From a virus: a DNA stretch of 59,346 nucleotides. Below the pieces are notes generated by a model. It saw nothing but the letters and a program-made list of their open reading frames with translations. It searched no databases and had not been told where the DNA came from. A program made the translations under genes and the position numbers. Below are positions 4,788 to 33,609 of the stretch, in pieces (the first letter of the stretch is position 1; every line of letters begins with the position of its first letter). The stretch spans positions 1 to 59,346 of the IMG/VR virus record IMGVR_UViG_3300047322_000637, one strand, 5' to 3'.

Positions 4788-6052
4788 ATCTCTTCGGCTG
4801 GGATATCTCTCGGAAGACGGCCTCGACGATTAGCCTTGACCAGCTGATCCGCCGGCTGGAAGCGATCTACAGCACAACATCCGGAACGAACATCACGCCA
4901 GAGAATTGCATGGAATCGCCGACTGTTCACGCGATCGTGACAGGCATTTCTCGCGGCATTTCCTCATGTCCGGTGCATGTTTATCAAAAAGGGGCGAAGG
5001 ACGGCCTAGACACCAAGGAAGTCCAGCCGAACCACCCGGTAGAGAAGCTGCTGAAACAGCCGAATGACTGGCAAAGTCCGGTGGAATACTGGCAGGACGC
5101 AACCAGCGCTTTGATGCGTTACGGCTGCTTCATCGCCTACAAAGCTCAGGGAAACACGGGCCCGATCCGTCGTCTAATTCCGCTTAGGTCCGCCAGTGTG
5201 AACTTTAAGCAGAACGATGATTATTCAATTAAGGTCACGATTGCGCAGGCGAATGGCAGTGAGAAAGATGTCCCCTATAACGAGCTTCACTATGCCAGAG
5301 GGCCCGCGCGTGACTTCCTTCGAGCCAATTCGCCGATTGTCGACTGCCGCGAGGCTATCGGACTCGAAATAGCGGCCGAAAAGTTCGGTGCATCCTTCTT
5401 TGGCGGCGGCGCAATGCCTGGGATCGTCTTCAAGTTCCAGGAAGGCTTTCAGGCCTTCAAGACGGATGAAGAGAAAAAGAAATTCATTCAGGATTTCCAG
5501 GATGCCCACAGCAACCGCGGCCGATTCCGCTCGATGCTTCTGCCCAAAGGCATCGATATGTCGGAGAAGCTGATCGGCTTTGAGAACGATAAGGCGCAGT
5601 TCCTTGAGACGCGCAAATATCAGCGCACCGTCATCGCCGGCGCCTTCGGTGTTCCGCCCTATCTCGTCGGCGATCTGGAACGCGCGACGTTCAACAATGT
5701 TGAGCAGCAAAGCATCAATAAGATTTCGGAAGTACTCCTGCCGATTGCGCGAATTTTTGAGGCGGCCATGGAGCGCGATCTTCTTACGAAAGATGATCGA
5801 AACGGTGGGATCATCATTCGTTTCAACTTGGACGGGCTCCTGCGCGGCGATTTCTTTACGCGCCAGCAAGGTTTGAAGCTGCAGCGCGAAGCGGGCGTGA
5901 TTAATGCGAGTGAATGGCGCGAAGCTGAAGGAATGAATCCGCGGACGGACCCGGGCGGCCTGGTCTACTGGGACACCGGTCCTTCCGGCCAGGGGATGAA
6001 ACCGGCCGTGGCAAATAATCCGGAACCGAACGATGCCAACCCCAAAACCTAA
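4784..6052 (+). CDS. Portal protein, HK97 family
   Basis: 422 aa. The portal forms the dodecameric ring at the capsid vertex through which DNA enters. Family features include the N-terminal ENCMESPTVHAIVTGISRGISSCPVHVYQK, the HPVEKLLKQPNDWQSPVEYWQ stretch, LLPKGIDMSEKL with the following FLETRKYQRTVIAGAFGVPPYLVGDL, and the C-terminal tunnel region with NASEWREAEGMNPR. Length is normal for HK97-type portals. ATGA overlap with the terminase gene. Its end overlaps the protease gene. Confidence 0.95.
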   Translation: MNLFGWDISRKTASTISLDQLIRRLEAIYSTTSGTNITPENCMESPTVHAIVTGISRGISSCPVHVYQKGAKDGLDTKEVQPNHPVEKLLKQPNDWQSPVEYWQDATSALMRYGCFIAYKAQGNTGPIRRLIPLRSASVNFKQNDDYSIKVTIAQANGSEKDVPYNELHYARGPARDFLRANSPIVDCREAIGLEIAAEKFGASFFGGGAMPGIVFKFQEGFQAFKTDEEKKKFIQDFQDAHSNRGRFRSMLLPKGIDMSEKLIGFENDKAQFLETRKYQRTVIAGAFGVPPYLVGDLERATFNNVEQQSINKISEVLLPIARIFEAAMERDLLTKDDRNGGIIIRFNLDGLLRGDFFTRQQGLKLQREAGVINASEWREAEGMNPRTDPGGLVYWDTGPSGQGMKPAVANNPEPNDANPKT

Positions 6053-6884
6053 AAAGGAAACGCGTGAAGAATGGATGCAGCGATGCGTTCCGCGTGTCCT
6101 CAATGACGGGACGGCTTCGAGTAACGATCAGGCGGTTGCCATCTGTGAACATATGTGGAGCGATGCGACGAAGGGAGCCCAAGTGAAGAGAGAAACGCTC
6201 GATTTCAAATTCGACGTAAAAACGAGCCTGAACAGCCGCGAATTCGAGGGATACGGTTCAACCTTCGGCAATGTCGACCTGGGTGATGATGTGGTTCTGC
6301 CCGGAGCATTCAAAGAGACATTGGCTGATCATGAAACTGACGGCGCGCTTCCTCAAATGTTCTGGATGCATCAAATGGATCAGGTCTGCGGCAAATGGAC
6401 GGCGATGTCTGAGGATAAAAACGGACTGTACTGCAAGGGGATTCTCGCGGACACGCCACGCGGCAACGAAGTCCGCACACTTTTGAATATGAAGGCCGTC
6501 CGTGGCCTGTCCATTGGATTCTCGATCCCGGATCGGTCCACGGATATGAGTTACAACGAAGACGGAACACGCTTGATCCATAAGGTGGATCTCTGGGAGG
6601 TGTCCGTCGTCAGCCTTCCCATGAATCCCATGGCGCAGGTGACCGCTTCAAAAGCATTATTACTTTCCGACCCACGCGCAACGGAACGACGCCTACGTGA
6701 CGCAGGCTTTACCCAATCCGAAGCGAAATGCATTATTTCAGGAATGAAACATATCGACGCAATCGGGGCACGTGATGTGGACCGAGCGACACGTGAAGTG
6801 GAAGTCGACGATGAGGCAGCCGAAGTTCTTAAAATGCTCCACTCCATGACTACTTCCATGGTTGCAGGAGCGTTCAAGATCTAG
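6033..6884 (+). CDS. Prohead maturation protease, HK97 family (peptidase U35)
   Basis: 283 aa. This serine protease trims the capsid protein during assembly. The likely catalytic pair is H113 in MFWMHQMD and S160 in RGLSIGF, and LWEVSVVSLPMNPMA is the usual strand after the serine. An extra N-terminal domain of about 50 residues (EEWMQRCVPRVLNDGTA, QAVAICEHMW) precedes the protease fold. This small domain occurs in front of other phage proteases and virion proteins and may act in scaffolding or targeting. The gene overlaps the portal gene by 20 bases and is followed by a terminator. Confidence 0.9.
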   Translation: MPTPKPKKETREEWMQRCVPRVLNDGTASSNDQAVAICEHMWSDATKGAQVKRETLDFKFDVKTSLNSREFEGYGSTFGNVDLGDDVVLPGAFKETLADHETDGALPQMFWMHQMDQVCGKWTAMSEDKNGLYCKGILADTPRGNEVRTLLNMKAVRGLSIGFSIPDRSTDMSYNEDGTRLIHKVDLWEVSVVSLPMNPMAQVTASKALLLSDPRATERRLRDAGFTQSEAKCIISGMKHIDAIGARDVDRATREVEVDDEAAEVLKMLHSMTTSMVAGAFKI

Positions 6885-6895
6885 TCCGTCTGCCA

Positions 6896-6942
6896 AAACC
6901 GTCAACCCAGCCGCCTTTCATCGGGCGGCTTTTTTATTGGAG
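6896..6942 (+). terminator. Hairpin terminator joined to the capsid-gene ribosome binding site
   Basis: The stem AGCCGCC (6909-6915) pairs with GGCGGCT (6924-6930) around an 8-base loop and is followed by a T run to 6935. GGAG at 6939-6942 is the Shine-Dalgarno of the capsid gene. The 19 bases from 6924 to 6942 recur exactly at 17596-17614 before the tail-tube gene, and sequence before the stem is also similar. It may terminate partially, or act as a 5' stabilising stem-loop for the capsid transcript. Confidence 0.7.
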
Positions 6943-6952
6943 ATCACATCTA

Positions 6953-8422
6953 ATGACCCCAAAGCAATGGTGGTTTTTGAACTGCCGGCCGACCGTCGCG
7001 CCGCAGCAAAACCCGGTATTTAACATTCTCATTCCTATCGGCCTGGTCATCGTGGCCATGTTTGCCGTTCTCGCCGTCGGTTTCGCCGCAACCCATCAGG
7101 GCAATGCGCACGTCCAGATCGCCGAAATTACAGCACCAAGCCTTGTGGTCATCAAAGACGCCATCGAAAATCAGGCGAAGGCCTTCGATGCTTTCAAGGA
7201 TACGAACGACAAGAAGATCGAGGCAATCAAGAGCGGTAATGAATCTCTTGCCAAAGAACTCGATCAGAAGCTCGGCCGGATCGAAGTCGATCTGAAGAAG
7301 CAGAACGAGGTCCGTATTAATTGGGAAGCCGAGATGAAGTTCTTCACGGAGCGCCTCGAGGAACTCGAATCCCGAGCGAAAACGCCCGGCAAAACCGGCG
7401 AAGAGAAGGCCCGCGATGAATATCACGACGCTTTCGTCACCTGGATCCGACATAAAGCCGCATATGCTGAGGACGAACGGCGCCTTTCGGATGCGGAAAA
7501 GAAACTCGGAAGGGAAACAAAAGACATCACCGTTGGCAGCAACGCCGGCGGCGGGTACGCGCTCCCCAAGGTTATTGCGCAGCAGATCGAGCAGTTCGAA
7601 CTGAAATATTCGCCAGTTCGCCGACTCGTCAAAGTCGTTCAGGCGGGAACGACCGATTTCCATCAGCTCTTGAATCTGCGCGGCGCCACTTCCGGGTGGG
7701 TTGGAGAAACATCGAATCGCAACGCCAGCAATACCCCGCAATTGAGAGATATCGTTCCTACTTTTGGAGAGCTCTACGCCTATCCCCAGATCAGCGAATG
7801 GTCCACTGATGATCTCCAGTTCGATGTTGAAACTTGGCTCGCAGAGAACGTCGCGGATGAGTATGCCAGGCAGGAAGGCATTGCCGTATTGACGGGCAAC
7901 GGTTCGAACAAGCCGACGGGCATGTTGAACACGACGCCTCTAAGCACGGCCGACAATGCATCTCCTGTGCGCACGGCGGCAGCGTATCAGTACATTGATT
8001 CGGTTGCGTCGCCATTCTCGGTGAACGGTTCCGATGCATTGATCAAGATCATCTATACGTTGAACAGCGCTTATCGTGCTGGTTCGACTTGGATCATGAA
8101 CAGCAACACGATCGCGTCGGTTCGCGGTTTGAAAGATTCTCAGAACCGTTACCTCTGGGAGCCTTCGCTGCAAGCCGGCCAGCCGAACACGTTGCTCGGC
8201 TACACGCAGGAAACATGGGAGGACCTGGACGATATCGGGTCCGGCAAATTCCCGGTTGCCTTCGGCAACTTCCAGCGCGCCTACCTTTTGGCGGATCGCG
8301 TTGGGATGCGTATCACAAGGGATAATGTGACGAATCCAGGTTACATTCGTTTCTACGTAAGGCGACGTGAGGGGGGCATCGTTCTCAATAACGACTCGCT
8401 CAAGTGGATCAAAACATCCTAA
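6953..8422 (+). CDS. Major capsid protein, HK97 fold, with N-terminal hydrophobic helix
   Basis: 489 aa. The C-terminal 300 residues show an HK97-type capsid protein: GGGYALPKVIAQQI, the long E-loop-like stretch, LAENVADEYARQEGIAVLTGNGSNKPTGML, STWIMNSNTIASVRGLKD and the C-terminal GNFQRAYLLADR with ITRDNVTNPGYIRFYVRRR. Residues about 55-145 form a charged coiled coil, the expected delta/scaffold domain that the protease removes. Unusually, residues about 20-46 form a strong membrane-type helix (PVFNILIPIGLVIVAMFAVL). The ATG at 6953 has GGAG ten bases upstream, so this segment is probably translated. A later start at 7058 would drop half of it but lacks comparable support. Confidence 0.9.
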   Translation: MTPKQWWFLNCRPTVAPQQNPVFNILIPIGLVIVAMFAVLAVGFAATHQGNAHVQIAEITAPSLVVIKDAIENQAKAFDAFKDTNDKKIEAIKSGNESLAKELDQKLGRIEVDLKKQNEVRINWEAEMKFFTERLEELESRAKTPGKTGEEKARDEYHDAFVTWIRHKAAYAEDERRLSDAEKKLGRETKDITVGSNAGGGYALPKVIAQQIEQFELKYSPVRRLVKVVQAGTTDFHQLLNLRGATSGWVGETSNRNASNTPQLRDIVPTFGELYAYPQISEWSTDDLQFDVETWLAENVADEYARQEGIAVLTGNGSNKPTGMLNTTPLSTADNASPVRTAAAYQYIDSVASPFSVNGSDALIKIIYTLNSAYRAGSTWIMNSNTIASVRGLKDSQNRYLWEPSLQAGQPNTLLGYTQETWEDLDDIGSGKFPVAFGNFQRAYLLADRVGMRITRDNVTNPGYIRFYVRRREGGIVLNNDSLKWIKTS

Positions 8423-8454
8423 ACTATTTAGCCATTGTTTAGGCTATAATGTTC

Positions 8455-8488
8455 GAGGCCGGTTAGCACGCAAATGCTGACCGGCCTC
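8455..8488 (+). other. Strong stem-loop between capsid and HNH genes
   Basis: A 14-base stem (8455-8468 with 8475-8488, one G-T wobble) closes a six-base loop. No T run follows, so it is not a classic intrinsic terminator. It may protect the 3' end of the capsid mRNA or reduce expression of the nuclease gene behind it. A TATAAT at 8445-8450 could be a -10 element, but I see no good -35 at the right distance. Confidence 0.55.
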
Positions 8489-8516
8489 TAACCACATCGC
8501 TAGGTGAATAGCAAAC

Positions 8517-9083
8517 ATGGCTGATCAACAAAATACTAAAATCTGCATCAAATGCAAAATATCCCAGCCTTTAGATGGCACCAATTTTGCACCATACAAG
8601 CAATCAAATGGCGGATTCCAGCCCGTATGCAGGCCTTGCCGAAAAATACAACGGCGAAAATGGGATGCGAAGCAGAGAGGCAAGGCATGTTCAATCCCAG
8701 GCTGCGGAGCGAATGCTCATGATGGCGAATTGTGCGCCTCGCACTATCGCCGAAAGCGTCTATATGGTGATCCACTTCATTACGATCCGCGTTGTAAAGA
8801 CTGGCGTAAAGGCTTCTCGATGCATCGTGGCTATGTACGCCTCAGCATGGGGCGAAATAAAGACATCTATGAGCATAGATTCGTCATGGAGAAGCATCTA
8901 GGACGCGCATTATTACCATTCGAGAACGTGCACCACATCAACGGCATAAAAACTGACAACAGAATTGAAAATTTGGAACTGTGGTCGACGTCTCAACCAT
9001 GTGGCCAGCGCGTCAAAGATAAGATCAAGTGGGCCGAAGAACTCCTGGCCCTCTACAAACCGCAAATGAAACTATTCGCATGA
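8517..9083 (+). CDS. Free-standing HNH endonuclease with zinc-binding N-terminus
   Basis: 188 aa. Residues 10-45 hold CIKC and CRPC (a zinc ribbon), and a second set CSIPGCG with CASHYRRKR follows, a DNA-binding motif of phage HNH proteins. The nuclease core is [39 protein letters not shown], with the HH-N-N arrangement of HNH homing nucleases. Such genes are mobile and often sit beside capsid or terminase genes. Its own spacer with a hairpin and a gap after the capsid gene, unlike the tight coupling elsewhere, suggests insertion. Confidence 0.9.
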
Positions 9084-9307
9084 GCGCTTTCACCGAACAA
9101 CAAATCGATCAACTTTGGCCGGCGGCGCGCGCCGAATTGCTTTCGCTGGCGGTTCTTCTGAACGCCGGGCCTGGAAAATTTCAAGCCTCGCAGCTCTGCA
9201 TGGCAATCCAAATGGCCGACAAATCGTACAAGCGACACAAGAAAAAACATCCTGCCCCTGAAAACAAGATGATGCGCCCCGCTCCGGAAAACAAAAAACG
9301 TGCTTGA
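9080..9307 (+). CDS. Small protein of unknown function
   Basis: 75 aa, ATGA overlap with the HNH gene. The N-terminal 45 residues look helical ([20 protein letters not shown]) and the C-terminus is Lys/Pro-rich with a repeated PAPENK motif. It overlaps the connector gene by eight bases. I do not recognise a family. Position among head genes suggests a small structural or assembly role. Confidence 0.6.
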
Positions 9308-9956
9308 TCCCATCCAACTCGGCATCACGTCGCTCACCGGTGATCCCTACGACATCGGCCTGATCCGCGCCCACTGCCATGTGGATGAACAACCCGGGAC
9401 GCTGCAGGACACTCTGCTTTTGCTGTATATGCAGTCGGCGATCGCCTGGGCGGAAGGCGAGATGCACCGCACGATCTTTTCGCGTTCGCATCAATGGGTG
9501 CTGCGGCACTTTCCTTTTGATTGGTTGCCGGTGATCCGACTGCCGCGGGGTAAAACGCAGTCCGTGGAAAGCATCCAATATTGGAACAATGCGATCTTGA
9601 TGACGCTTCTCGGGCCGGATGCGAGCCCGCCAGGGACCGATTTCCAGCAATCAATAATTGGCGACGATGGTGGCGAGCTCTTGCCGCCGATTAGCGGAGC
9701 CTGGCCGAATTCTGATTTGAACGTGCCGGCTCCGGTCACCATCAACTTCACGGCAGGCTGGGGAACGTCTCAGGTTCCGGCCGACATCACGCAGGCTCTA
9801 ATGTTCTACGTCTCCGATTGTATGGAAATGCGGGGAACGGCGGATGTTGAAAAGGGCAGTTATGCAGACATCCGGGCGAACAAGATTAGCGCGTACACGC
9901 TAAATCGCATCTATGGGCCTCCTGAAATCTGGCCGCCGGCGGGACCGCGATGGTAA
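9300..9956 (+). CDS. Head-tail connector (gp6-like / phage QLRG-type)
   Basis: 218 aa, GTG start. The pattern of an N-terminal helix pair (LLLLYMQSAIAWAEGEMHR), a central beta region with WLPVIRLPRGKTQSVESI, then VTINFTAGWGTSQVPADITQALMFYVSDCMEMRG and a C-terminal helix ending NRIYGPPEIW is that of connector proteins that sit under the portal. Position after the capsid agrees. Its partner adaptor at 17186 is normally the next gene but is separated here by the 7-kb glycan cassette. Confidence 0.85.
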   Translation: MLDPIQLGITSLTGDPYDIGLIRAHCHVDEQPGTLQDTLLLLYMQSAIAWAEGEMHRTIFSRSHQWVLRHFPFDWLPVIRLPRGKTQSVESIQYWNNAILMTLLGPDASPPGTDFQQSIIGDDGGELLPPISGAWPNSDLNVPAPVTINFTAGWGTSQVPADITQALMFYVSDCMEMRGTADVEKGSYADIRANKISAYTLNRIYGPPEIWPPAGPRW

Positions 9957-10651
9957 AGATCAGCTTCGTTACCGGAACACGCAACCGTCCCGACGCATTC
10001 CGGCGGCTCGTCGACAATCTAAAATCGGTGACCGTTTCATGGGAATTGATCGTCGGGGATGCCAGCGACGAGCCTATCCAAACAGATAGTCTGCCGGCGA
10101 ACGTGCTCGTGATTCCCGAACGACCGCGGCTCGGCATGGCGCGGGGCTACAACGTGGCTTTCGAGCGCGCCTCGGGTGAATGGGTGATTTGGTTGAACGA
10201 TGACGCCACGCTCGATCCTGGCTGCGCAGAGCAGGCCATTCGCTTCATGGAGCAGCATCCGGAGATCGGTCTCGGGGCCATCTATTACAACGACAAAATG
10301 GCACGACGCGACTATCACGTCAATGTCTGTTGCTATGGGATGCTTTATGCCAATTTCGGCATCCTGAAGCGCGAATTCGGCAATCAGCTGGGTTGGTTCG
10401 ATGCGGAATGCTGCCCGATGTATGGAAGCGACAACACGATCGCTTACCGGACGCTCCTCGCCAGCAAAGGCGTTGCCGGAATCCCCAGCGCGCGCATCAC
10501 GCATCATTCCGAGGACGACGACTGCCGGCGGCAGAACAATTACGGCCGTGAACAGGATTCCTACACGCTAAAAGGCAAATACGGCCCGCTCCTGCCCCAA
10601 ATGAAGCAGGTCTACGAAGAGAAAGGAAATATATGCAAACAGATGGCATGA
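9950..10651 (+). CDS. Glycosyltransferase family 2 (GT-A fold)
   Basis: 233 aa. First gene of the glycan cassette. The strand-loop ISFVTGTRNRPDAFRRLVDNL is the nucleotide-sugar binding start of GT2 enzymes, VGDASD continues it, and WLNDDATLDPG (NDD at 83-85) is the metal-binding DxD-type motif. The C-terminal half carries YGSDNTIAYR and ARITHHSEDDD, plausible acceptor-site residues. No membrane segment is present, so it acts in the cytoplasm, probably on a virion protein or a sugar intermediate. It overlaps the connector gene by seven bases. Confidence 0.85.
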   Translation: MVKISFVTGTRNRPDAFRRLVDNLKSVTVSWELIVGDASDEPIQTDSLPANVLVIPERPRLGMARGYNVAFERASGEWVIWLNDDATLDPGCAEQAIRFMEQHPEIGLGAIYYNDKMARRDYHVNVCCYGMLYANFGILKREFGNQLGWFDAECCPMYGSDNTIAYRTLLASKGVAGIPSARITHHSEDDDCRRQNNYGREQDSYTLKGKYGPLLPQMKQVYEEKGNICKQMA

Positions 10652-10761
10652 TTTGCCCGAGCTGCAAGGGCAGCGGCGTCCGCGATGGAATGACTTGTGC
10701 CAGTTGCCAGGGTGAAGGTATGGTTCCTGTATCTAAGACAAGGCAGGCCGGCTCTCGGTGA
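10633..10761 (+). CDS. Tiny zinc-finger protein, DnaJ-type CxxCxGxG repeats
   Basis: 42 aa. CPSCKGSG and CASCQGEG are two copies of the CxxCxGxG motif that binds zinc in DnaJ. Two such motifs make one zinc site. ATG at 10633 has AAGGA upstream and the stop overlaps the next gene start in a GTGA. It lies inside the end of the preceding glycosyltransferase gene. Role unknown. It could be a small chaperone or protein-binding module for the cassette enzymes. Confidence 0.75.
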   Translation: MQTDGMICPSCKGSGVRDGMTCASCQGEGMVPVSKTRQAGSR

Positions 10762-11348
10762 AAGTCCACATGGGCAGCGGGTCAGTCTATCTGAAGGACT
10801 GGCTCAACGTGGACGTTCCGGACAGGAACACGTTTCTGGCCGATGAACGTCCGGACCTGGTCGACCGCTGGAGCACCACGGAAGCCGATTATTACGCTCG
10901 GCATGCCGACAAAACGCAAGATGCGCTCAGATCCGGGCCGCTGAATCAGGAGTATGTCTGTGACGTTTATGGAAGCTTCCTAAACCTGCCGCCATTGCAA
11001 GAACCGGTGGACGAACTTTTAGCACGTCAGGTCTGGGAGCACATGTCCATTACGGAAGCGCGCGCGGCTCTAACGGAGCTCTATCAGGCGATTCGGCCTG
11101 GTGGAATCCTCCGCATTGATGTCCCTGACCATGAGAAAACACTCGAACTCTATGCGGCAACTCGCGACCCGTTCTATGTTCGGCATCTGCTTGGACCGCG
11201 GCGGAATGATTATGGGTTCCATTTAATGAGTTATACCCCTTGTCGACTCGCCGCACTGGTCGAAGAAAAGGGATTCTTCCGCTGCGTGGGAAGTGAGGAA
11301 AATCTGCATTTCTACCCGGCATTTTGTCTGAGGTTTGAGCGTCAATAA
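10758..11348 (+). CDS. SAM-dependent methyltransferase, class I
   Basis: 196 aa, GTG start in a GTGA overlap. The N-terminus VHMGSGSVYLKDWLNVDV is a motif I variant, LLARQVWEHMSITEARAALTELYQAIRPGGILRIDVPDHE is the usual catalytic-core region of Methyltransf_11-type enzymes, and the C-terminus ends with a strand pair. It probably methylates a sugar or small glycan, judging by its glycosyltransferase neighbours. Substrate not readable. Confidence 0.8.
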   Translation: MKVHMGSGSVYLKDWLNVDVPDRNTFLADERPDLVDRWSTTEADYYARHADKTQDALRSGPLNQEYVCDVYGSFLNLPPLQEPVDELLARQVWEHMSITEARAALTELYQAIRPGGILRIDVPDHEKTLELYAATRDPFYVRHLLGPRRNDYGFHLMSYTPCRLAALVEEKGFFRCVGSEENLHFYPAFCLRFERQ

Positions 11349-11953
11349 TGGATCTTGCACCGAGAGAATATGTTGAACTTCCGGAGATGCCGGAGCATTG
11401 GCGTGTCCTGGACATTGGGCCAGGCCAATATCCGTTAAAGCGCGCGAATGTCTTCCTGGACCGCAATCGCGAGAACCTGAAGCCGATGCAGGCTGAGGGA
11501 ATAGAGACCATTGCGGAAAATCTGGAAGAAGGGCTGCCGATGATACCGGACAAATCGTTCGATTATGTCTGGTGCTCACATGTGCTCGAGCATGTGCAGG
11601 ATCCTGCAGCCTGCGCAGCGACAATCAGCCGTATCGGGAAGGCCGGCACGATGGTTGTACCGAGCGCGATCAAGGAAAGCATCTTTAATTTTGAAGAGGC
11701 CGAGCATCAATGGTTGGTCCTTCCGCATCCGAGCGATGGAGAGCCGCCGATTTTCGTCCGGCATAACCGAAATTTTATCCGCAAAATTATTGATAAAGAC
11801 GTTCAGAAGTCGATGTGCTTTCTATACCGAACAGGGAGCAATCACGATTGCACCGTTGAACAATATTTGCGGACATGGTTTGCGAATCGAGAGCGCGATC
11901 TTGATATCGTCGTGCACTGGCAAGGGGAACTGAAGTTTCAGGTGATCGGGTGA
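11348..11953 (+). CDS. SAM-dependent methyltransferase, class I
   Basis: 201 aa. VLDIGPGQYPL (motif I), then DYVWCSHVLEHVQDPAACAATISRIGKAGTMVVPS (motifs II-III) identify a Methyltransf_11-like fold. The C-terminal part carries a long insert with HPSDGEPPIFVRHNRNFI. The start overlaps the previous stop by one base (TAATG) and the end overlaps the next gene in a GTGA. Likely an O-methyltransferase on glycans. Inference from context. Confidence 0.8.
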   Translation: MDLAPREYVELPEMPEHWRVLDIGPGQYPLKRANVFLDRNRENLKPMQAEGIETIAENLEEGLPMIPDKSFDYVWCSHVLEHVQDPAACAATISRIGKAGTMVVPSAIKESIFNFEEAEHQWLVLPHPSDGEPPIFVRHNRNFIRKIIDKDVQKSMCFLYRTGSNHDCTVEQYLRTWFANRERDLDIVVHWQGELKFQVIG

Positions 11954-12930
11954 AGATAAATATTTTCGATACCTATTACCCGCAGTTTATCGAATCCTGG
12001 AGCTTCGACCGGGGCGCCGATGCGGCTTTAGAACTGCAGCGCTTGCTGGACTTTTCTTTCGGCACTTTCGATGCCTATGGCAGGAATTTGCGCCATCTCG
12101 GATGGAACGTTCGCGACATAGTACTGAATGCCAATCTTCAGCACGATGTCATCGCTGATCCAGATGTGGTTTTCATGCAGGATCTGTCCATCAATCCGCC
12201 ATTCCGCGGGCGGATCCTCGCCGGCCAATGCTCCTGTCCCATGCCGGACGAGCGGATGCTCCGCGGCTATGACGTGATCTTTTCCTCATTCCCACACTAC
12301 ATCGACCGTTTCGAACGCATGGGAATTAAGGCCGTTTATAACCCGTTGGCCTTCGATCCGATCGTGCTCGAGCGCATTCAAAAGACCGGATGTCTTCCAT
12401 TTGTGCGCGATCTGGATTGCGTCTTTGTCGGCGGTGTCGGCAATCCATCGCACTGGCGGGCCGGCCTGGAGACACTGGAGGCCGTCGCTGCAGCCATTCC
12501 GACCTTCAAATGGTGGGGGTACGGCGTTGAGACGCTGAACACAAACAGCCCGCTGCGGGCCACATATCAGGGCGAAGCCTGGGGCCTCGATATGTACCGG
12601 CTTTTGTTGCGCTCCAAAATCGTACTGAACCGGCACGGCGAGGTCGCCCAGGGAATGACCAATAACATGCGCACTTTCGAGGCGACAGGCTGCGGTGCGC
12701 TGCTGCTGACCGAGCGAAGCCTGAACCTAAGCCAGTTCTTCACTCAGTCGGAGGCTGCGGCTTACGGATCACCGGAAGAGGCCGTGCAGCTCATTAGACA
12801 TTATCTGGAAAATGATGAGATGCGCGCAGCGATCGCCAGGAACGGCCAGAGACGAACGATGTCCGATCATACATATTTGCATCGGATGAAAACAGTGTCC
12901 GACACGCTTCTGGAGATGTTGGCGGCATGA
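11950..12930 (+). CDS. Glycosyltransferase, GT-B fold (CgeB / group 1-like)
   Basis: 326 aa, GTG start. The C-terminal half has the GT-B pattern: CVFVGGVGNPSHWRAGLETLE, then SKIVLNRHGEVAQGMTNNMRTFEATGCGALLLTERS with the acidic/Gly donor-binding region, and finally YGSPEEAVQLIRHYLENDEMRAAIARNGQRR, all typical of spore maturation protein CgeB-like and Glyco_trans_1_2 enzymes. The N-terminal half holds the acceptor domain. Cytoplasmic, no signal. Neighbours are methyltransferases on both sides. Confidence 0.85.
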   Translation: MKINIFDTYYPQFIESWSFDRGADAALELQRLLDFSFGTFDAYGRNLRHLGWNVRDIVLNANLQHDVIADPDVVFMQDLSINPPFRGRILAGQCSCPMPDERMLRGYDVIFSSFPHYIDRFERMGIKAVYNPLAFDPIVLERIQKTGCLPFVRDLDCVFVGGVGNPSHWRAGLETLEAVAAAIPTFKWWGYGVETLNTNSPLRATYQGEAWGLDMYRLLLRSKIVLNRHGEVAQGMTNNMRTFEATGCGALLLTERSLNLSQFFTQSEAAAYGSPEEAVQLIRHYLENDEMRAAIARNGQRRTMSDHTYLHRMKTVSDTLLEMLAA

Positions 12931-13670
12931 GTTCGGTGAATTACAGCGAATTAACGCCCGGTCAGATTGCATCGGTGGCCGCTCAGTGCGCAGGGGCGTG
13001 GCAGGATCCACAAATCCCGAGCCGCCAATCCGAAGTCGCACTTCCAGAAATTGAAAAATTTCGAAATGGCCAGCCGGTGGCACCCTTCGATGCATTTATT
13101 CGATGCTGGAACAAGATACCGCCAGCCGGTGCGGCGGATCCCAAACGATTTAAATGGAATGTTCTCGATGTGGGAGCCTCGGCAGGCTATTACCGGGAAG
13201 TTCTCAGAATCGCTGGCGCGAAATTCATTTATAAGGGGATCGATTTCTCTCCAGAATTCATCACATTTGCCCAGCAGGTCTACCCTGGCATTGATATCGA
13301 ATTGGGCGATGCAATTGCGTTGAAGTTCGAAAACGATGAATTCGGTGTCGTCTTAAGCAGTGGATGTGTGATGCATGTGGCTGAATATGAGAAGGCGATC
13401 CGGGAAGCCGCTCGCGTCGCGCGCCAATATGTCATTTTCAACAGGACGCCAATCACGGACGGGCCGACCCGGTACTTTTGTAAAGAGGCGTATGGCGTCC
13501 AGTGTTTGGAAATCTGGTTCAATGAAGCAGACTTAATTCGGATCTGCGCTGATGCCGGGCTGCGTTTGGTCTATTCGACCGATGTTTTCCATGATTCGAT
13601 ATCCTGGCACCGTTCTTACCTGCTCGAAAAGTATCCAATTGAGCCTTACGCGAGCAATCCGAACGTATGA
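12927..13670 (+). CDS. SAM-dependent methyltransferase, class I
   Basis: 247 aa, ATGA overlap. VLDVGASAGYYREVL near residue 78 is motif I, YKGIDFSPEFITFA is motif II, IELGDAIALKFENDEFGVVLSSGCVMHVAEYEKAI is motifs III-IV. The enzyme resembles small-molecule methyltransferases of the Methyltransf_11/25 type. An N-terminal extension of about 70 residues precedes the fold. Likely acts on the cassette glycan. Confidence 0.8.
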   Translation: MSSVNYSELTPGQIASVAAQCAGAWQDPQIPSRQSEVALPEIEKFRNGQPVAPFDAFIRCWNKIPPAGAADPKRFKWNVLDVGASAGYYREVLRIAGAKFIYKGIDFSPEFITFAQQVYPGIDIELGDAIALKFENDEFGVVLSSGCVMHVAEYEKAIREAARVARQYVIFNRTPITDGPTRYFCKEAYGVQCLEIWFNEADLIRICADAGLRLVYSTDVFHDSISWHRSYLLEKYPIEPYASNPNV

Positions 13671-14509
13671 GACATTACGCCACACTTTTCGATTCCGGAT
13701 ATCTCGCCAAGGGCCTCGTGATGTACGAATCGCTACTAAAGCATTCAAGCGAACCCTTCACGTTGCATGTTCTGGCATTGGATGAACGGACTGCCGAAGC
13801 GATGCAAGATTGTCCTGGAACCGAGATTTACTGCCGCGACAGCGTTGAAAAAGAGCTAGATCTGGCCGAGGTTAAAGCGAATCGAACCTGGCAGGAATAT
13901 TGCTGGACCTTAGCCTCCGTCTTCAGCGAATACATCTTGCGAAGGCTAACTGTCCATCCCGACAATGCCGTTACCTATCTGGACGCGGATCTTATGTTCT
14001 TTGGCGATCCGAGGGCCATCTTCGACGAAATACCCTATCGTGCCCTTGGGTCGATTGCGGTGATTCCGCATCGGTTCATTCCCTCGAAGCGACATCTTGA
14101 GGTGAATGGTAGGTTCAACGTCTCATGGGTGACCTTCAGCGGGGCTCAGGGTTATTGGTGTGTCCAGCGATGGGCGGAGCAATGCCGCAAACGCTGCTCT
14201 GCAAATGTCGGCTGCGGGGACCAGGCCTATTTGGATGAGTGGCCAGGAATGTTTCAAGACAGCTTGCATGTCATTCAGAACGTCGGTGCCGGCTTGGCCC
14301 CATGGAATCTTGCCAATTACCAGTTATCTGAAGGCCACGCGGAAGGTGTTCCGTTTGTCTTCTTCCACGCACATGAGTTCATAGACGGCGTCCAGTTAAC
14401 CAATTACGAATTGCGACCGCAGGACATTGAATTTATTTATAAGCCTTATCTGAAAGCCTATCAGGAAGCGAAAGAGAAAATTGCGTCAATACATCTACTC
14501 GCCCGCTGA
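13667..14509 (+). CDS. Nucleotide-sugar transferase, GT-A fold (GT8-like)
   Basis: 280 aa, ATGA overlap. The N-terminus YATLFDSGYLAKGLVMYESLLKHSS is the start of GT8/Nucleotide-diphospho-sugar transferase domains, and YLDADLMFFGDP (DAD at 106-108) is the metal-binding motif. FNVSWVTFSGAQGYWCVQRW and CGDQAYLDEWPG fit the acceptor side and the DQxxLD motif. No membrane segment. Together with the GT2, GT-B and GT47 genes it implies assembly of an oligosaccharide rather than single-sugar addition. Confidence 0.8.
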   Translation: MRHYATLFDSGYLAKGLVMYESLLKHSSEPFTLHVLALDERTAEAMQDCPGTEIYCRDSVEKELDLAEVKANRTWQEYCWTLASVFSEYILRRLTVHPDNAVTYLDADLMFFGDPRAIFDEIPYRALGSIAVIPHRFIPSKRHLEVNGRFNVSWVTFSGAQGYWCVQRWAEQCRKRCSANVGCGDQAYLDEWPGMFQDSLHVIQNVGAGLAPWNLANYQLSEGHAEGVPFVFFHAHEFIDGVQLTNYELRPQDIEFIYKPYLKAYQEAKEKIASIHLLAR

Positions 14510-15374
14510 AGCGGGAGTCCCGCACTGGCCGGACGGCACTCTCCGGTTTAACCAGGTGGAAGTCACGCAAAACCCGGACGAGGCGGATCTCTTCGTCTGC
14601 CCGGGAACGCTTCAGCTTTTCGGCAGTCGCGAAGCGCTTTGCCGCTTCCCCCATTTCGCCGGACGCGAGAATCGCCACGTCTTCTTCTGCATCGATGAAA
14701 GCACGGTGCAGTATGACAGCCAGGCTCTCTTGATCCGATGCAACCTGAAAACGCACATGCTGTCCAGGGATCCGAATAGCATTTCCTTTCCGTGGCCGGT
14801 CGAGAATTATACGGAATGCATTGATCTGCCGGAAGGCGGGTTTAAATACGATGTCAGTTTCCACGGTTGGCTGAACTATTCGACGCGCATCGAGTCATCT
14901 GGCTCATGTTTGGAGCGTCCGGATTTGAAATGCGATATGGCGCGGTATCCAGATTTCACTGGGGCAATTTACAGCTTGCCGGAAGGCGTGCGTCGGCGCG
15001 CAGAGTTTCGCCGCAGTATGCGCGAAAGTCGCCTGGCGCTTTGCCCTGAATCCATCCCTGGAGACTTCCCATATCGGTTTTTTGAGGCAATGAGCGCAGC
15101 TCGAGTTCCCGTTCTCGTCGGGGCCGATCAGGTTTTCCCGTTCGCTGATGAGATTCCCTATTCGGAATTCGCTTTACACATCAACCCGGGCGAGGCCTCG
15201 CGGGTCGGTATCTATATCGCGCAATACTTGAAGGAAACGCCAGATGAGGAAATTATCCGCCGCGGGAAGGTCGCGCGCTCCTGGTGGGAAAAGCTGCTTA
15301 ATCGTGATATCTGGCAAGAATCGATGCTTCATGCAGTGAAAAAGAAGTTCGATCAATTCGGCTATTCCTATTGA
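14481..15374 (+). CDS. Exostosin-like glycosyltransferase (GT47 type)
   Basis: 297 aa, probable TTG start within the end of the previous gene. Exostosin-family features are DEADLFVCPGT, RFPHFAGRENRHVFFCIDES, the central KYDVSFHGW, then RRRAEFRRSMRESRLALCPESIPGDFPYRFFEAMSAARVPVLVGAD and the C-terminal FALHINPGEASRV. In eukaryotes and bacteria the family transfers sugars such as GlcA, GlcNAc or Xyl. Such enzymes are uncommon in phages. Its stop overlaps the next start by one base. Confidence 0.8.
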   Translation: MRQYIYSPAEAGVPHWPDGTLRFNQVEVTQNPDEADLFVCPGTLQLFGSREALCRFPHFAGRENRHVFFCIDESTVQYDSQALLIRCNLKTHMLSRDPNSISFPWPVENYTECIDLPEGGFKYDVSFHGWLNYSTRIESSGSCLERPDLKCDMARYPDFTGAIYSLPEGVRRRAEFRRSMRESRLALCPESIPGDFPYRFFEAMSAARVPVLVGADQVFPFADEIPYSEFALHINPGEASRVGIYIAQYLKETPDEEIIRRGKVARSWWEKLLNRDIWQESMLHAVKKKFDQFGYSY

Positions 15375-15880
15375 TGAGTCACCAATTTAAAGAGAATACC
15401 GTCATTAGCTACGGTAAGAATTTCGGTATCGAAGTACTCATCGAAACCGGCACATGGCACGGCCAAATGGTCGAGGCCGTCAAGGAGCATTTCAGGCAGG
15501 TTTATTCCATCGAATTGGATGAATCCTTTGCTGCCGAGAATCGATCCAGATTCCAGGAAGATCAAAGCGTTCGCATTCTATGCGGTGATAGCGGCATGGC
15601 TCTTCCTAAACTACTCCGCGCAGAGAAGCGACCAGCAGTTTTCTTTCTTGATGCTCATTATTCGGGGATTGGAACGAGCCGTGGCGACAAAGACACTCCA
15701 ATCCTGGAAGAATTGAAGGCTATTTTTGCGGCAAAAGCTCAAGTTAATGGAATTGTTCTAATCGATGACGCGCACGTTTACTCCGGAGTAGGAGACTGGC
15801 CGCACATCGATATATTGCGAGAGATGGCCGGCGCGCGCAAATTCGAAATCGAGCAGGACATCATTCGGATTACTCCATGA
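15374..15880 (+). CDS. SAM-dependent methyltransferase-like protein
   Basis: 168 aa, ATG at 15374 in a TGATG overlap. LIETGTWHGQMVEAVKEHFRQVYSIELDESFA is a motif I-II region as in FkbM and Methyltransf_24 relatives, RILCGDSGMALPKLL is motif III, VFFLDAHYSGIGTSRGDKDTPILEEL and IVLIDDAHVY are the later strands with conserved acidic residues. The short chain is a bare Rossmann core. Probably a sugar O-methyltransferase. Confidence 0.75.
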   Translation: MSHQFKENTVISYGKNFGIEVLIETGTWHGQMVEAVKEHFRQVYSIELDESFAAENRSRFQEDQSVRILCGDSGMALPKLLRAEKRPAVFFLDAHYSGIGTSRGDKDTPILEELKAIFAAKAQVNGIVLIDDAHVYSGVGDWPHIDILREMAGARKFEIEQDIIRITP

Positions 15881-16554
15881 AACTGGTCGTCATTTCCTGC
15901 TGGAAATACCGGGATGCCTGGAAGCCGTTCTTTCGGCTGCTCGAGCATTTCTGGCCGGATTGTCCATACGACAAATATTTAGTCACGGATCAAGTCGGGA
16001 ATGAACCGGATATTCCTGGAGTTAGGCGCGCTTACAGCAACACCGGTGGCTGGTGCGATACGCTTAAAATGTTCGTCAATACGGCGATTAATCCCGACGA
16101 ACCGATCCTGATGTTCCAGGAAGACTTCTTCTTAACGGAAACCATTCGGACGTGGATTATTCAGCGGGCACTTCTGGAGTTCAGGCGATTGAACGCCGGA
16201 TGTGTGCGTCTTTATCCGATGCCTGGGGCTGATGGTGAATACGGCAACTCGGAATTCGGCTGCATTCCGGCCGGAACGCCTTATCGGATTTCCTGTCAGG
16301 CTGCGATCTGGGATCCGCAATATCTGGCGAACATCTGCGAAGTCGGCGGCATGGCGATGCATTTCGAGATCAACGGTTCAAATTTCAGCAATACGCTTCC
16401 TCAGCCGGTCCTTGGCTGGAAGCGCGACGTTAAGCCGTGGCCGCTCGAATATATCTGCAGCGCGATCTCGGCTGGCCGCTGGGATCCGAATGCGAAGAAG
16501 CTTTGCGACTCTCTGGGTATCGAGGCGGATTTCTCTATGAGGGCATTCGCCTGA
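15877..16554 (+). CDS. Glycosyltransferase-like protein, GT-A type
   Basis: 225 aa, ATGA overlap. VVISCWKYRDAWKPFFRLLEHFWPDCPYDKYLVTD at the start and PILMFQEDFFLTETI (ED at the DxD position) indicate a GT-A-like fold. Similar short proteins occur in phage and capsular glycan clusters without known activity. RLYPMPGADGEYG and ICEVGGMAMHFEINGSNFS are probable acceptor-site loops. Family assignment is moderate. Confidence 0.65.
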   Translation: MKLVVISCWKYRDAWKPFFRLLEHFWPDCPYDKYLVTDQVGNEPDIPGVRRAYSNTGGWCDTLKMFVNTAINPDEPILMFQEDFFLTETIRTWIIQRALLEFRRLNAGCVRLYPMPGADGEYGNSEFGCIPAGTPYRISCQAAIWDPQYLANICEVGGMAMHFEINGSNFSNTLPQPVLGWKRDVKPWPLEYICSAISAGRWDPNAKKLCDSLGIEADFSMRAFA

Positions 16555-17189
16555 AACTCGTTTCTGCGATTATGCCCACGCGGGGACGCCGTGAATGGGC
16601 GCAGTCTGCGCTGGATTGCTTTCTGCGGCAATCCTATCCCCTGAAAGAACTGGTAATTATTGATGATTTGGCCGACCCCTCTTTTAAGTCTCCGGGGCTC
16701 GGTATCGAATACTGGTTGAGTCAGTCGCGGAATATCGGCTGGAAGCGTAATGAAGCCTGCCGAATGGCCACCGGCGAAATCATCATGCACTGGGATAGCG
16801 ATGACTGGAGCAATTCGGACCGAATGGCGGAACAGGTCGCATTCCTGGAGGCATCCGGCAAGCAGGTTACGGGATACAGCACGCTTTTGTTTCACGAGGG
16901 AAACACGGGTAAATGGGGCCGTTACCTCGGTGACCGACACTATTCCCTCGGAACCTCACTCTGTTATTTCAAGAGCTGGTGGGAACGACATCCTTTCAAT
17001 GAAGCCGTGACCGTCGGTGAAGATAACCAGTTCGTCTCCGATGCTGTGAATGAGGGCGCGTTTATCTCACAAGAAGGCCGCGGGATGATGGTGGCGCGCG
17101 TCCACTCCGACAATACGAGTCCGAAAGACATGGGTAACTTTACCGGCACCGTTACGCCGGCAGACATTCCAGTAGGCTTTACGGCGTGA
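16551..17189 (+). CDS. Glycosyltransferase family 2, probable CTG start
   Basis: 212 aa. The fold begins with LKLVSAIMPTRGRREWAQSALDCF, the first strand of GT2 enzymes. QSRNIGWKRNEACRMATGEIIMHWDSDDW contains the metal-binding DSDD. The only in-frame ATG (16572) falls inside the first strand (MPTRG), which would remove residues the fold needs. CTG at 16551 overlaps the previous stop as CTGA, exactly like the ATGA and GTGA couplings of its neighbours, and gives the usual GT2 N-terminus. It ends the cassette and overlaps the head-tail adaptor start. Confidence 0.8.
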   Translation: MKLVSAIMPTRGRREWAQSALDCFLRQSYPLKELVIIDDLADPSFKSPGLGIEYWLSQSRNIGWKRNEACRMATGEIIMHWDSDDWSNSDRMAEQVAFLEASGKQVTGYSTLLFHEGNTGKWGRYLGDRHYSLGTSLCYFKSWWERHPFNEAVTVGEDNQFVSDAVNEGAFISQEGRGMMVARVHSDNTSPKDMGNFTGTVTPADIPVGFTA

Positions 17190-17551
17190 GAGCCGGGCAA
17201 TTGCGAGACGTCGCCACACTTCAAACGCGAACAGTCACCGGTGACGATCAAGCCGGACACGCGATTACCTGGGGCAGTGATGCACAGATTCAATGCAACT
17301 TCCAGAAGCTTACGGAAATGTCCGCGCGGATCATCACGCGATTCTTCCAGTCGGTCTATCTCAACAAAGAGAATTACCGGCTTCTGGCGGACGGGAAAAT
17401 CTGGGTCTTGACCGCTGCGATTCCGGACGGTCGAAGGACCATGCTAACCATTGACTGCGATCTCGGAGAACTCGTCGAAGTAACGACCATCACTTCTACC
17501 GAGAAGCAGTATATCGACGGAGTTCCGGAAGCTAGACCGCCGGACGATTAG
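17186..17551 (+). CDS. Head-tail adaptor / head closure protein
   Basis: 121 aa, GTG start in a GTGA overlap. The pattern MRAGQLRDVATLQTRTVTGDDQAGHAITWG, then CNFQKLTEMSARIITRFFQS and the C-terminal strands is that of SPP1 gp16-like and phage head-tail joining proteins, which close the portal channel and bind the tail. It would normally follow the connector gene at 9300 directly. Here the sugar cassette intervenes. Confidence 0.8.
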   Translation: MRAGQLRDVATLQTRTVTGDDQAGHAITWGSDAQIQCNFQKLTEMSARIITRFFQSVYLNKENYRLLADGKIWVLTAAIPDGRRTMLTIDCDLGELVEVTTITSTEKQYIDGVPEARPPDD

Positions 17552-17569: not shown

Positions 17570-17614
17570 AAACCGTTAACCCGGCCGCCAACCTTGGCGG
17601 CTTTTTTATTGGAG
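17570..17614 (+). terminator. Hairpin terminator joined to the tail-tube ribosome binding site
   Basis: GCCGCC (17584-17589) pairs with GGCGGC (17596-17601) around a six-base loop and is followed by six T. GGAG at 17611-17614 is the Shine-Dalgarno of the tail-tube gene. The bases 17596-17614 are identical to 6924-6942 before the capsid gene, and the flank before the stem is similar too. Confidence 0.7.
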
Positions 17615-21470: not shown

Positions 21471-22871
21471 ATGAAGAAATTCCTGGCGCTCTTTTGCGCG
21501 TTTCTGGTGGCCGCTCCAGATATGGCGTTGGCCACGACGCTCTATGCCTCCGCCTCTGGTAGCGGCACGACCTGTTCCACCGGCAGTCCGTGCAGCGTGA
21601 ATCAGCTTGTCGCCGGAACGAGCGGAAACACGCTCGGGCCAGACGATATCGGAATCCTGGCGAACGGCACCTATACCGGCGTAAATGGAATGATCGTCCC
21701 AGCGTCTGGCCGCGCGGGATCTTCCGGCCATCCGATCACACTGCAAGCGGAAACAGATGGTGGGGTTCTGATCGACGGTCAGACGTTGCGGATTCCAATT
21801 CGCTTAGCCACAGGAAATTCCTGGTGGGTGATCACTGGTATTAACGCCGCGCATGCTGACGCTGGAAGCAATGTTGTAGACCTTGACGTTGGGGCAACGC
21901 ACAACATTGTTCGTAGGACGATTGGGTGGGATGCAGGTGATAGACATGCTGTCTTCAATTCTTCAGACGCCAACAACCTGTTTGAAGATGTAGCTGGTTT
22001 TGGGCAGGGTCGCAAGACCTTTGGCAACTCGCAAGGTAGTGACGGCGTCATCTACCGCAGAGCGTTTGGAATTTGGAATAAATCAACTGGAGACGTAGGA
22101 CCATCCGAAACATTTTCCAATACGTACAACAGCCACAATGGTCTTTATGAAAATGTTATCGGCACAATCGATCCAGACCCTGGCGTCTCAGTGGCGAATG
22201 GGATGTACGGTGTGTTCATCTTTGAGCGGATGAACGATTTGTATGACGGCACCTACGCCTCTGTTTGTGCCGGAAGCGCGAAATATTTAGGGTCCATCGC
22301 ATATGTAACCGCGGCCGAGACACCAATCATCACGACTGACCCGATGAATGTTAACAATAGCTTGGGTCTGCTCCAAGGGGGATTGGCTCTCACCTGCATT
22401 CATTATAAAGATGTTGTAGCCTACGCCGATCAAGCGGTGATGACAGCCAGCAATGCTACCTTGAGTGGAATCTACAGTGGCCCTGCGATGTCCGGTGACC
22501 ATACATTTGACAAGGTGACTGAGATCCGAACTGCTGGTACTCGCCGTCTTGTTGATACAGACTGGCAAGTTACGAATTCAGAGCAGATCGCTTCCGTGGC
22601 CGCAGCAGACAATATCTGGAATGGTACAGGAGGAACTGGGGCGAGAGTCTGCTACCAATATGTCGATGGCACTTTAACCACGACTCCGCTGTGGCCATGG
22701 CCGATGAACCAGCGAATCATCGACGCTATGACAACCGCAAGCCGAACACCAATTGATGTCACAGCCACGATGGAATCAATCTTTGGCACTATCCCGCCGG
22801 ACTGCATTGGTGCCTCACCGGATGGCTCCATCGTCCGGATTGTAATGAGCATCGCTAGGAGGCGGCATTGA
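21471..22871 (+). CDS. Secreted right-handed beta-helix protein (fibre/depolymerase-like)
   Basis: 466 aa. A clear Sec signal peptide: MKKFLALFCAFLVAAP, cleavage after ALA near residue 21. The mature part reads as a parallel beta-helix: TLYASASGSGTTCSTGSPC, GPDDIGILANGTYTG, GHPITLQAETDGGVLIDGQT, then repeated short strands with Asn/Asp turns, as in chondroitinase/pectate-lyase-like folds. Possible role: a glycan-binding or glycan-cleaving fibre. The export signal is odd for a virion protein, because phage tails assemble in the cytoplasm. It immediately follows distal tail gene A. Confidence 0.75.
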   Translation: MKKFLALFCAFLVAAPDMALATTLYASASGSGTTCSTGSPCSVNQLVAGTSGNTLGPDDIGILANGTYTGVNGMIVPASGRAGSSGHPITLQAETDGGVLIDGQTLRIPIRLATGNSWWVITGINAAHADAGSNVVDLDVGATHNIVRRTIGWDAGDRHAVFNSSDANNLFEDVAGFGQGRKTFGNSQGSDGVIYRRAFGIWNKSTGDVGPSETFSNTYNSHNGLYENVIGTIDPDPGVSVANGMYGVFIFERMNDLYDGTYASVCAGSAKYLGSIAYVTAAETPIITTDPMNVNNSLGLLQGGLALTCIHYKDVVAYADQAVMTASNATLSGIYSGPAMSGDHTFDKVTEIRTAGTRRLVDTDWQVTNSEQIASVAAADNIWNGTGGTGARVCYQYVDGTLTTTPLWPWPMNQRIIDAMTTASRTPIDVTATMESIFGTIPPDCIGASPDGSIVRIVMSIARRRH

Positions 22872-30157: not shown

Positions 30158-30162
30158 TCTCA

Positions 30163-32499: not shown

Positions 32500-32528
32500 A
32501 TTTTCAAAATGATAAGGAGTCTTTAAAA

Positions 32529-33608
32529 ATGAAAAAACTATACATGGCGCTGATCGTCCTGATCGGCATACTCATCTCAGCCGCGGCATTCACTCAAGAT
32601 CAGAACAGAAGCAGGGGCCTAACGGACGTCGCTGAAGTCCATGTGGGGCGCGGTCGGCCGCTCATGGAAGCGCTTCCCATGCCGCACATCTACCACCTCG
32701 AAGCGAGGCACTGGCCCAGCGGTTGTGAATTCGAGCGTGCAGCCTACATCCGTTCTGGAGAAATGCCTTTCGAAAGCTCCCCCTGCGGCCAGAAGTTCTA
32801 TGACTACATGGGTGAGAATCTTGTCACATCGGCTGGTGAGACTGCGATCTCCAAGCAGATGTCGGACACCGCGGCGCAGCCGGCAAGCGCCAACTATATC
32901 GCACTGACGAACACCGGCATAACCGCAGCCGTTGGAGATACGACCTTATCCGGCGAGATTGTGTCCAATGGCCTGCAGCGGGCACAGGGCACATTCGCCG
33001 ATACCAGCGCCGCTCTGGGCACCAATCCATCTATGGGCGCGGTATCACAGGTTGGAACTGCTGGTTCCACCACAGTCGATTACTGGGTTGTCGCGTGCAC
33101 CTTCCAAGGTTGTCAATCGATCACAGCGGCGACCGGCGCTCAAACGACCACATCCAATGCAACTCTATCAACAGCGGTATACAATATTTCGTCCTTCACC
33201 GGCAAGCTCGGCGCCGCATTCTATCGGCTGATCCGAACGCACAATAACACCACGCCGACAGGATCGCTGGCGGGTGGTGGAACAATCACAACGGCGGACG
33301 GCGAAATCAGCGCAGGCTACATTAGCTGCGCGACGGTTGGCGGGCAGACTGCCGGCACAGCGCCAACCTGCAACGTTGCGGATCAGTCCAACACGCTCGG
33401 TGCCTTTACAGTTCCGGGATCGGATCAAACCTTCGCCGGTAAATACACGCTGACGAAGACATTCACAGCGACCGGCGCCCAGTCGGCACAGGCTTTCGGG
33501 ATTCTCAATGCAGCCTCAACAGGGACGCTTTTCTTTGAGGGCACATTCAGCTCGGCATCGTTGATCACGAACGACACGTTAGCTTTCACTGAGACCGTCT
33601 ACCACTAA
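32529..33608 (+). CDS. Secreted structural-type protein
   Basis: 359 aa. AAGGAG lies ten bases upstream. Signal peptide MKKLYMALIVLIGILISAAAFT. The middle and end contain a domain widely found in phage virion proteins: PASANYIALTNTGITAAVGDTTLSGEI, NGLQRAQGTF, and the C-terminal YTLTKTFTATGAQSAQAFGILNAASTGTLFFEG. Between them is an insert with paired cysteines (ACTFQGCQS). So a virion surface domain again sits behind an export signal. Confidence 0.75.
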   Translation: MKKLYMALIVLIGILISAAAFTQDQNRSRGLTDVAEVHVGRGRPLMEALPMPHIYHLEARHWPSGCEFERAAYIRSGEMPFESSPCGQKFYDYMGENLVTSAGETAISKQMSDTAAQPASANYIALTNTGITAAVGDTTLSGEIVSNGLQRAQGTFADTSAALGTNPSMGAVSQVGTAGSTTVDYWVVACTFQGCQSITAATGAQTTTSNATLSTAVYNISSFTGKLGAAFYRLIRTHNNTTPTGSLAGGGTITTADGEISAGYISCATVGGQTAGTAPTCNVADQSNTLGAFTVPGSDQTFAGKYTLTKTFTATGAQSAQAFGILNAASTGTLFFEGTFSSASLITNDTLAFTETVYH

Positions 33609-33609
33609 G

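Follow-up and report, generated by a model that had tools for sequence, protein, structure and literature searches.

Organization of the cassette locus

The stretch analysed here, referred to as the window, is the full 59,346 bp of IMGVR_UViG_3300047322_000637, a record of an uncultured, HK97-type temperate phage with the gene order terL, portal, protease, major capsid protein (MCP), HNH, Ad1, cassette, Hc1 and major tail protein. The cassette, which is the subject of this work, consists of eleven same-strand (+) open reading frames (ORFs) at 9950-17189, set between the gp6-like adaptor Ad1 and the head closure gene Hc1 and lying inside the MCP-Hc1 block. It encodes six glycosyltransferase-type proteins, four methyltransferases and one 42-aa CxxCxGxG protein. 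The locus is laid out as follows:

9300..9956, + strand: Ad1 (gp6-like head-tail adaptor), left border; phrog_442, 2.4e-12
9950..10651, + strand: c1, GT2 glycosyltransferase; PF00535 Glycos_transf_2, 1.1e-12
10633..10761, + strand: c2, 42-aa CxxCxGxG protein; ORF
10758..11348, + strand: c3, methyltransferase-like; sub-cut-off Methyltransf_11, 0.0012, and alignment
11348..11953, + strand: c4, class I methyltransferase; PF08241 Methyltransf_11, 2e-9
11950..12930, + strand: c5, GT-B glycosyltransferase; PF13524 Glyco_trans_1_2, 6e-31, and alignment
12927..13670, + strand: c6, class I methyltransferase; PF08241 Methyltransf_11, 1.2e-13
13667..14509, + strand: c7, predicted GT8-fold glycosyltransferase; AlphaFold pLDDT 92, Foldseek LARGE1 (E 3e-9) and glycogenin
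14481..15374, + strand: c8, exostosin/GT47-like glycosyltransferase; PF03016, 3.4e-10
15371..15880, + strand: c9, Methyltransf_24-like; PF13578, 1e-4, below cut-off
15877..16554, + strand: c10, predicted GT-A-fold glycosyltransferase-like protein; AlphaFold pLDDT 94, Foldseek B4GALNT1, 1.8e-6
16551..17189, + strand: c11, GT2 glycosyltransferase; PF00535, 7e-13, match starting at residue 43 of the long ORF
17186..17551, + strand: Hc1 (head closure), right border; phrog_25, 2.8e-7
17583..17614, + strand: hairpin and T-run ahead of the major tail protein gene

Pfam matches exceed the curated cut-offs for six of the ten enzymes (c1, c4, c5, c6, c8 and c11), while c3 and c9 match methyltransferase families below them. 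Neither c7 nor c10 has a Pfam match, and their confidently predicted structures are GT8 and GT-A folds, respectively; almost no cassette protein is recognised by PHROGs. Glycosyltransferase motifs are mostly kept, with the LNDD-type motif of c1 kept in 17 of 18 members and D106 and D108 of the c7 DxD metal site invariant across 20 sequences. The exostosin GT47 domain of c8 scores 40.2 bits against a curated cut-off of 33.4, its matches in the PDB are EXTL3, EXT2 and EXT1 (2e-5 to 8e-4), and its TTG start is backed by alignment with relatives. The c11 ORF is open from 16437. Since the relatives and the Pfam match begin near residue 40, we read the CTG at 16551 as a likelier start; it overlaps the stop codon of c10 in the sequence CTGA.

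With the long c11 ORF excepted, adjacent genes overlap by 1-29 nt. The initial annotation had described this gene content, a position between the gp6-like connector and the adaptor, and operon coupling through short overlaps in a single direction; the first is upheld by ORFs, Pfam and predicted folds, the second by the phrog_442 and phrog_25 borders, and the third by the overlaps themselves. No forward promoter-like site was found in the MCP-Hc1 block, and the GC content of the cassette is near that of its flanks. A second contig (L001) has these junctions too, over the stretch from the protease to c8, at 99-100% protein identity, which argues against a chimeric assembly.

Recurrence of the cassette and its insertion site

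Scans with c5, c3, c8 and c7 were merged into 34 distinct viral records, of which one is a piece of the window virus itself and a few are near-duplicates. Across some 30 uncultured IMG/VR records, nine genes form a core in the order c1-c3-c4-c5-c6-c7-c8-c10-c11, with full collinearity in 22 of the 28 records (window counted) that carry at least three core labels, c3 and c4 being treated as one label since their profiles cross-match. Common ancestry accounts for this order, which is no evidence of repeated origin, and the joint chance of collinearity (1e-50) is not taken as evidence of independent events, as the records share ancestry. The best conserved member is c3, with 53-66% identity in most relatives and fusion to c4 in several. 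By comparison, c9 is a rare accessory gene found in 2 other records, and c2 is restricted to the window virus, being seen in the window and the near-identical contig L001 only.

The site recurs along with the genes. An Ad1 profile (phrog_40/442) precedes the cassette in eight of eight tested relatives, one of them weakly, and Hc1 (phrog_25, PF05521) follows it in about ten; Ad1 is also matched by Pfam PF05135. The search for the same insertion in related phages that the initial annotation proposed thus finds it again, usually at the Ad1-Hc1 site, and the two border genes are, as had been stated, normally neighbours: they stand side by side in Pseudomonas phage PMG1, Salmonella phage ST64B and several scanned prophages. 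Phages located by way of the collagen/CBM protein discussed below often have nothing, or a small ORF of ~66 aa, at this junction. Some cassettes lie elsewhere, by Dit or the tail tip (L047, L048), the tail spike (L056), the tape measure (L055) or upstream of Ad1 (L054/L078), where the readable neighbours are mostly virion genes. In the window and in nearly every relative with readable neighbours, glycosyltransferase genes stand beside or inside a virion structural operon.

Among sequenced phages the cassette has no close counterpart. Megablast against 50,697 GenBank phages gave no match, and tblastn against GenBank phages gave none for c3, c7 and c8 and two distant ones (27%) for c5. The earlier description of the cassette as unusual therefore holds for phage isolates, where it was not seen, but not for environmental phages, in which it is recurrent.

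The phages that carry the cassette differ in their other modules. The L004 portal is of the same lineage as that of the window (60% identity), while in nine other cassette phages the portal is only 19-22% identical to that of the window, compared with 54-66% for c3 and 44-57% for c1; the tail tube proteins fall into one group at 40-49% and another at 23-26%. Since c1 and c3 remain similar where the portals have diverged, the cassette persists through differing head and tail combinations, and these alignments indicate that it is retained while head modules are exchanged. Such retention bears on whether the junction of Ad1 and Hc1 is a hotspot for insertions, with the cassette as passenger cargo (a moron) of varied function under weak selection. 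Other genes do occur at or near the junction, including the L004 ATPase and the window HNH gene described next and unrelated sugar genes in other phages, but nine genes hold their order at ~35-66% identity across phages with different heads, and the glycosyltransferase motifs are mostly kept, which leaves the passenger explanation quite improbable.

In L004, an ORF that we read as encoding a MORC/HSP90-like ATPase lies with a partner between Ad1 and the cassette (5498-7596; merged coordinates 7204-9302), and the two could be a defence or moron pair. The window HNH endonuclease gene (8517-9083), with a zinc-finger-like N-terminus, lies between MCP and Ad1, near the cassette site. Further sugar-modifying sets occur near Ad1-Hc1 in collagen-like CBM phages (L112, L114, L116, L122, L127, L128, L149 and L175), with the families GT2, MptE-like, FkbM, TylF, WbqC, PIG-L and DegT when pooled over records.

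Membrane machinery, sugar supply and a proposed mechanism

Among 218 cassette ORFs checked, there was no credible multi-pass membrane protein and no flippase- or polymerase-like protein, and no flippase, polymerase, ligase or lipid-linked transferase was seen in any cassette examined. Membrane ORFs of bacterial control loci score 7-12 segments in the same check; the window cassette proteins score zero. Because the cassettes are without membrane export machinery, the sugar chain would be built on a cytoplasmic acceptor, and the acceptor that fits best is a virion protein made from the shared transcript.

The window cassette has no sugar-nucleotide genes, but some relatives add them, which suggests deoxy- and amino-sugars: gmd and an rmlC-like gene are present in L005, gmd in L055, an oxidoreductase in L008, and DegT aminotransferases in L008, L009, L011, L048 and L055. 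Two observations concern related pathways. In L070, a 301-kb record from a very large phage contig, cassette relatives lie beside an apparently complete dTDP-amino-sugar pathway (RmlA, RmlB, FdtA and FdtB-like by our own reading). In L046, a GDP-mannose-dehydratase-like ORF (6497-8527) of 676 aa is about twice the normal length, possibly through an intein, and a second long ORF (3323-5305) resembles it.

A mechanism that would accommodate these features begins with co-transcription of the cassette with MCP, Ad1 and Hc1, presumably late in infection. The soluble glycosyltransferases, drawing in the window on host sugar-nucleotide pools, would add nucleotide-sugars one at a time to give a short oligosaccharide, which the methyltransferases would cap or modify. 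The glycan would be assembled directly on a cytoplasmic virion protein before or during assembly, and the resulting methylated coat would hide the particle from recognition or bind glycan receptors. The acceptor is probably a collagen-like CBM protein in most relatives and would be some other structural protein in the window. We consider phage virion glycosylation the best reading of the cassette, and a probable one. Of the methylated oligosaccharide on capsid or tail that the initial annotation had envisaged, the virion glycan remains the best reading, given the structural-gene setting and the lack of export machinery, while capsid or tail is a putative site.

An alternative substrate for the same enzymes is nucleic acid, with glycosylation and methylation of phage DNA or a hypermodified base serving to evade restriction. 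T-even phage glycosyltransferases modify DNA (PMC9614988), and the cassette methyltransferases belong to the generic class I. Against this, no base-hydroxymethylation gene was seen among the larger window ORFs scanned, though no family-by-family search was made; six diverse glycosyltransferases with exostosin- and GT8-type folds, together with the amino-sugar genes of relatives, fit an oligosaccharide; and the cassette is grouped with late structural genes. We consider DNA modification very unlikely.

The collagen-like protein as candidate acceptor

In about ten relatives, a gene for a collagen-repeat protein lies between portal and Ad1, with a CBM_5_12-like domain in those tested, and this collagen-like/CBM protein is the favoured, likely acceptor candidate in most relatives. 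A collagen-like head protein is known in SPP1 (gp12; PMC7602432). A scan with the CBM-containing region found many phages. Those with collagen-repeat versions often carry unrelated GT2, MptE-like, methyltransferase, DegT and GMD genes in the same region (12 GT2 and 7 MptE-like among 79 proteins scanned), while phages with a repeat-less CBM protein have mostly ordinary tail genes nearby and sugar genes only rarely.

Virion or host surface

Several points weigh against glycosylation of the virion. The collagen-like gene is absent from the window record. The association between collagen repeats and cassettes (extra large ORFs in 22 of 25 records with repeats and 9 of 40 without; raw p 2e-7) is confounded, the repeat-less records collapsing into about four lineages, and after clustering is only a lead. 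Collagen-like proteins from E. coli prophages carried no glycosylation when produced recombinantly, but such enzymes were not present in that production (PMC3368898). No first-sugar (protein-linking) transferase was identified for the cassette. The virion reading is built on gene content, predicted folds, gene order, the recurrent site, persistence through module exchange and the lack of membrane machinery, from which expression timing, acceptor, sugar chemistry and benefit are inferred. Lastly, the window phage is temperate, having an integrase, and c5-c6-c7 are contiguous and in the same order, at 35-41% identity, in surface-polysaccharide loci of Hyphomicrobiales (L099, L100).

The last two points also favour an alternative in which the cassette remodels polysaccharide on the host surface, either at a late stage of infection or during lysogeny, and so blocks superinfection or re-adsorption of progeny to debris. 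GT8 genes of pelagimyophages have been read as host-surface modifiers (PMC7029224), and some relatives have gmd, rmlC or DegT genes of the kind usual in O-antigen loci. The Hyphomicrobiales loci carry RmlB-like, DegT-like or NeuB-like genes by our own reading, and one has flippase-like membrane ORFs; unlike the phage cassettes, they are chromosomal, lie among other polysaccharide genes and contain none of the remaining cassette genes. Near full-length c5 matches are found in 8 of 398 Hyphomicrobiales genomes, in none of 229 genomes from a different class of proteobacteria (which gave two partial matches) and in 2 of 199 genomes of another phylum. A scan of genome contigs with c5 gave no confirmed match, and one with c3 gave 23 loci at 21-38%, which are bacterial loci, not prophages, as far as read. 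In a c5 tree, phage rows group apart from bacterial rows (support 89/99), except for the long-branched V16 and V30, with weak deep branches.

Because c5-c6-c7 stand in Hyphomicrobiales loci, the cassette core is related to bacterial surface-glycan synthesis, and the phages either acquired this core to give themselves a host-like glycan coat or use it to alter the surface of the host. The absence of export machinery and the location in the structural operon lead us to favour self-coating. The components of gtrABC-type serotype conversion (GtrA flippase, bactoprenol transferase GtrB and multi-pass GtrC) were found in no cassette, and the location beside an integrase or attachment site typical of such systems is not that of the window cassette (9950-17189), the tyrosine integrase domain lying at 49956-50387. 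With the virion-operon location recurrent among relatives, we judge remodelling of the host surface unlikely.

Comparison with known glycosylation systems

Phage virion glycosylation has been documented in few isolates. Mycobacteriophages are reported to glycosylate capsid and tail-tube proteins by glycosyltransferases encoded beside an O-methyltransferase (PMC11600133, citing Freeman 2023). The cassette resembles this system in its tandem phage glycosyltransferases and methyltransferases, but the mycobacteriophage system has three glycosyltransferases and one methyltransferase, compared with 9-11 cassette genes that include GT8, GT47 and GT-A types. Unlike the mycobacteriophage genes, the cassette occurs between Ad1 and Hc1, and in uncultured phages that are unrelated; the sequence comparison of the two systems was the tblastn against GenBank phages. 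In Pseudomonas phages PMG1 and D3, an ORF annotated as a sialyltransferase separates the MCP and Ad1 genes, and Hc1 is followed by a methyltransferase ORF, but these are single genes whose positions differ from that of the cassette.

In chloroviruses and mimiviruses, virus-encoded glycosyltransferases, sugar methyltransferases and GMD decorate virion proteins, and a collagen-like viral protein is glucosylated (PMC5408694, PMC9614988). These are eukaryotic giant viruses and, unlike the cassette phages, have no compact operon among head genes. A further parallel lies outside viruses. BclA of the Bacillus exosporium (cited in PMC9614988 and PMC3368898) has a collagen-like region bearing a methylated-sugar oligosaccharide; as a spore protein, it resembles the collagen-like phage proteins by analogy.

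The cassette is real, conserved and functional-looking, and is probably a variant of phage virion glycosylation. A more ambitious proposal, which we put forward tentatively and hold to be possible rather than probable, is that of a mobile, phage-owned assembly line that builds a methylated, host-like glycan directly on an often collagen-like virion protein in the cytoplasm of the bacterium and stays in one place as the head and tail modules around it are swapped; as part of the same joint proposal, it would be the prokaryotic-virus counterpart of the autonomous glycosylation of giant viruses. A conserved 9-11 gene pathway that lacks close relatives in sequenced phage isolates and is tied to one virion-operon site in many environmental phages would, if confirmed as a virion glycosylation system, change the view of phage surfaces in immune recognition, adsorption and stability, and provide a source of new soluble glycosyltransferases and sugar methyltransferases. 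It would also suggest that many phage glycosyltransferase genes regarded as auxiliary act on the virion, not the host.

Host searches and other features of the window

Searches for a host through the portal covered 289 and 274 genomes and gave no match above 35% identity, so that the phage was assigned to no host, and c8 was not found in 279 genomes of one class. Eisenbacteria were considered as host and rejected, phage genes not being seen there and the similarity being merely isolated.

The hairpin and T-run ahead of the major tail protein gene has a counterpart before the MCP gene (6909-6942), which ends in the same 19 nt (GGCGGCTTTTTTATTGGAG, 6924-6942) as that at 17583-17614; this shared end is possibly a leader or processing signal common to the two most abundant virion proteins. 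The region 53-2564 holds a pair of ORFs that correspond to the N-terminal and the C-terminal portion of a single ParB/DNA-methyltransferase family (phrog_498); the ORF between them has a match to phrog_7093, whose annotation is 'threonine dehydratase'. The window also contains RecT/YqaJ recombination genes, and its non-structural region encodes DUF5131, DUF1643 and DUF3560 proteins (39984-40967, 52667-53239 and 56973-57860). In the tail block (21471-24274 and 30148-36557), six proteins have signal-peptide-like starts, for example MKKFLALFCAFLVAAPDMALA, and two of these look beta-helical by our own reading; secreted proteins amid tail genes would be odd.

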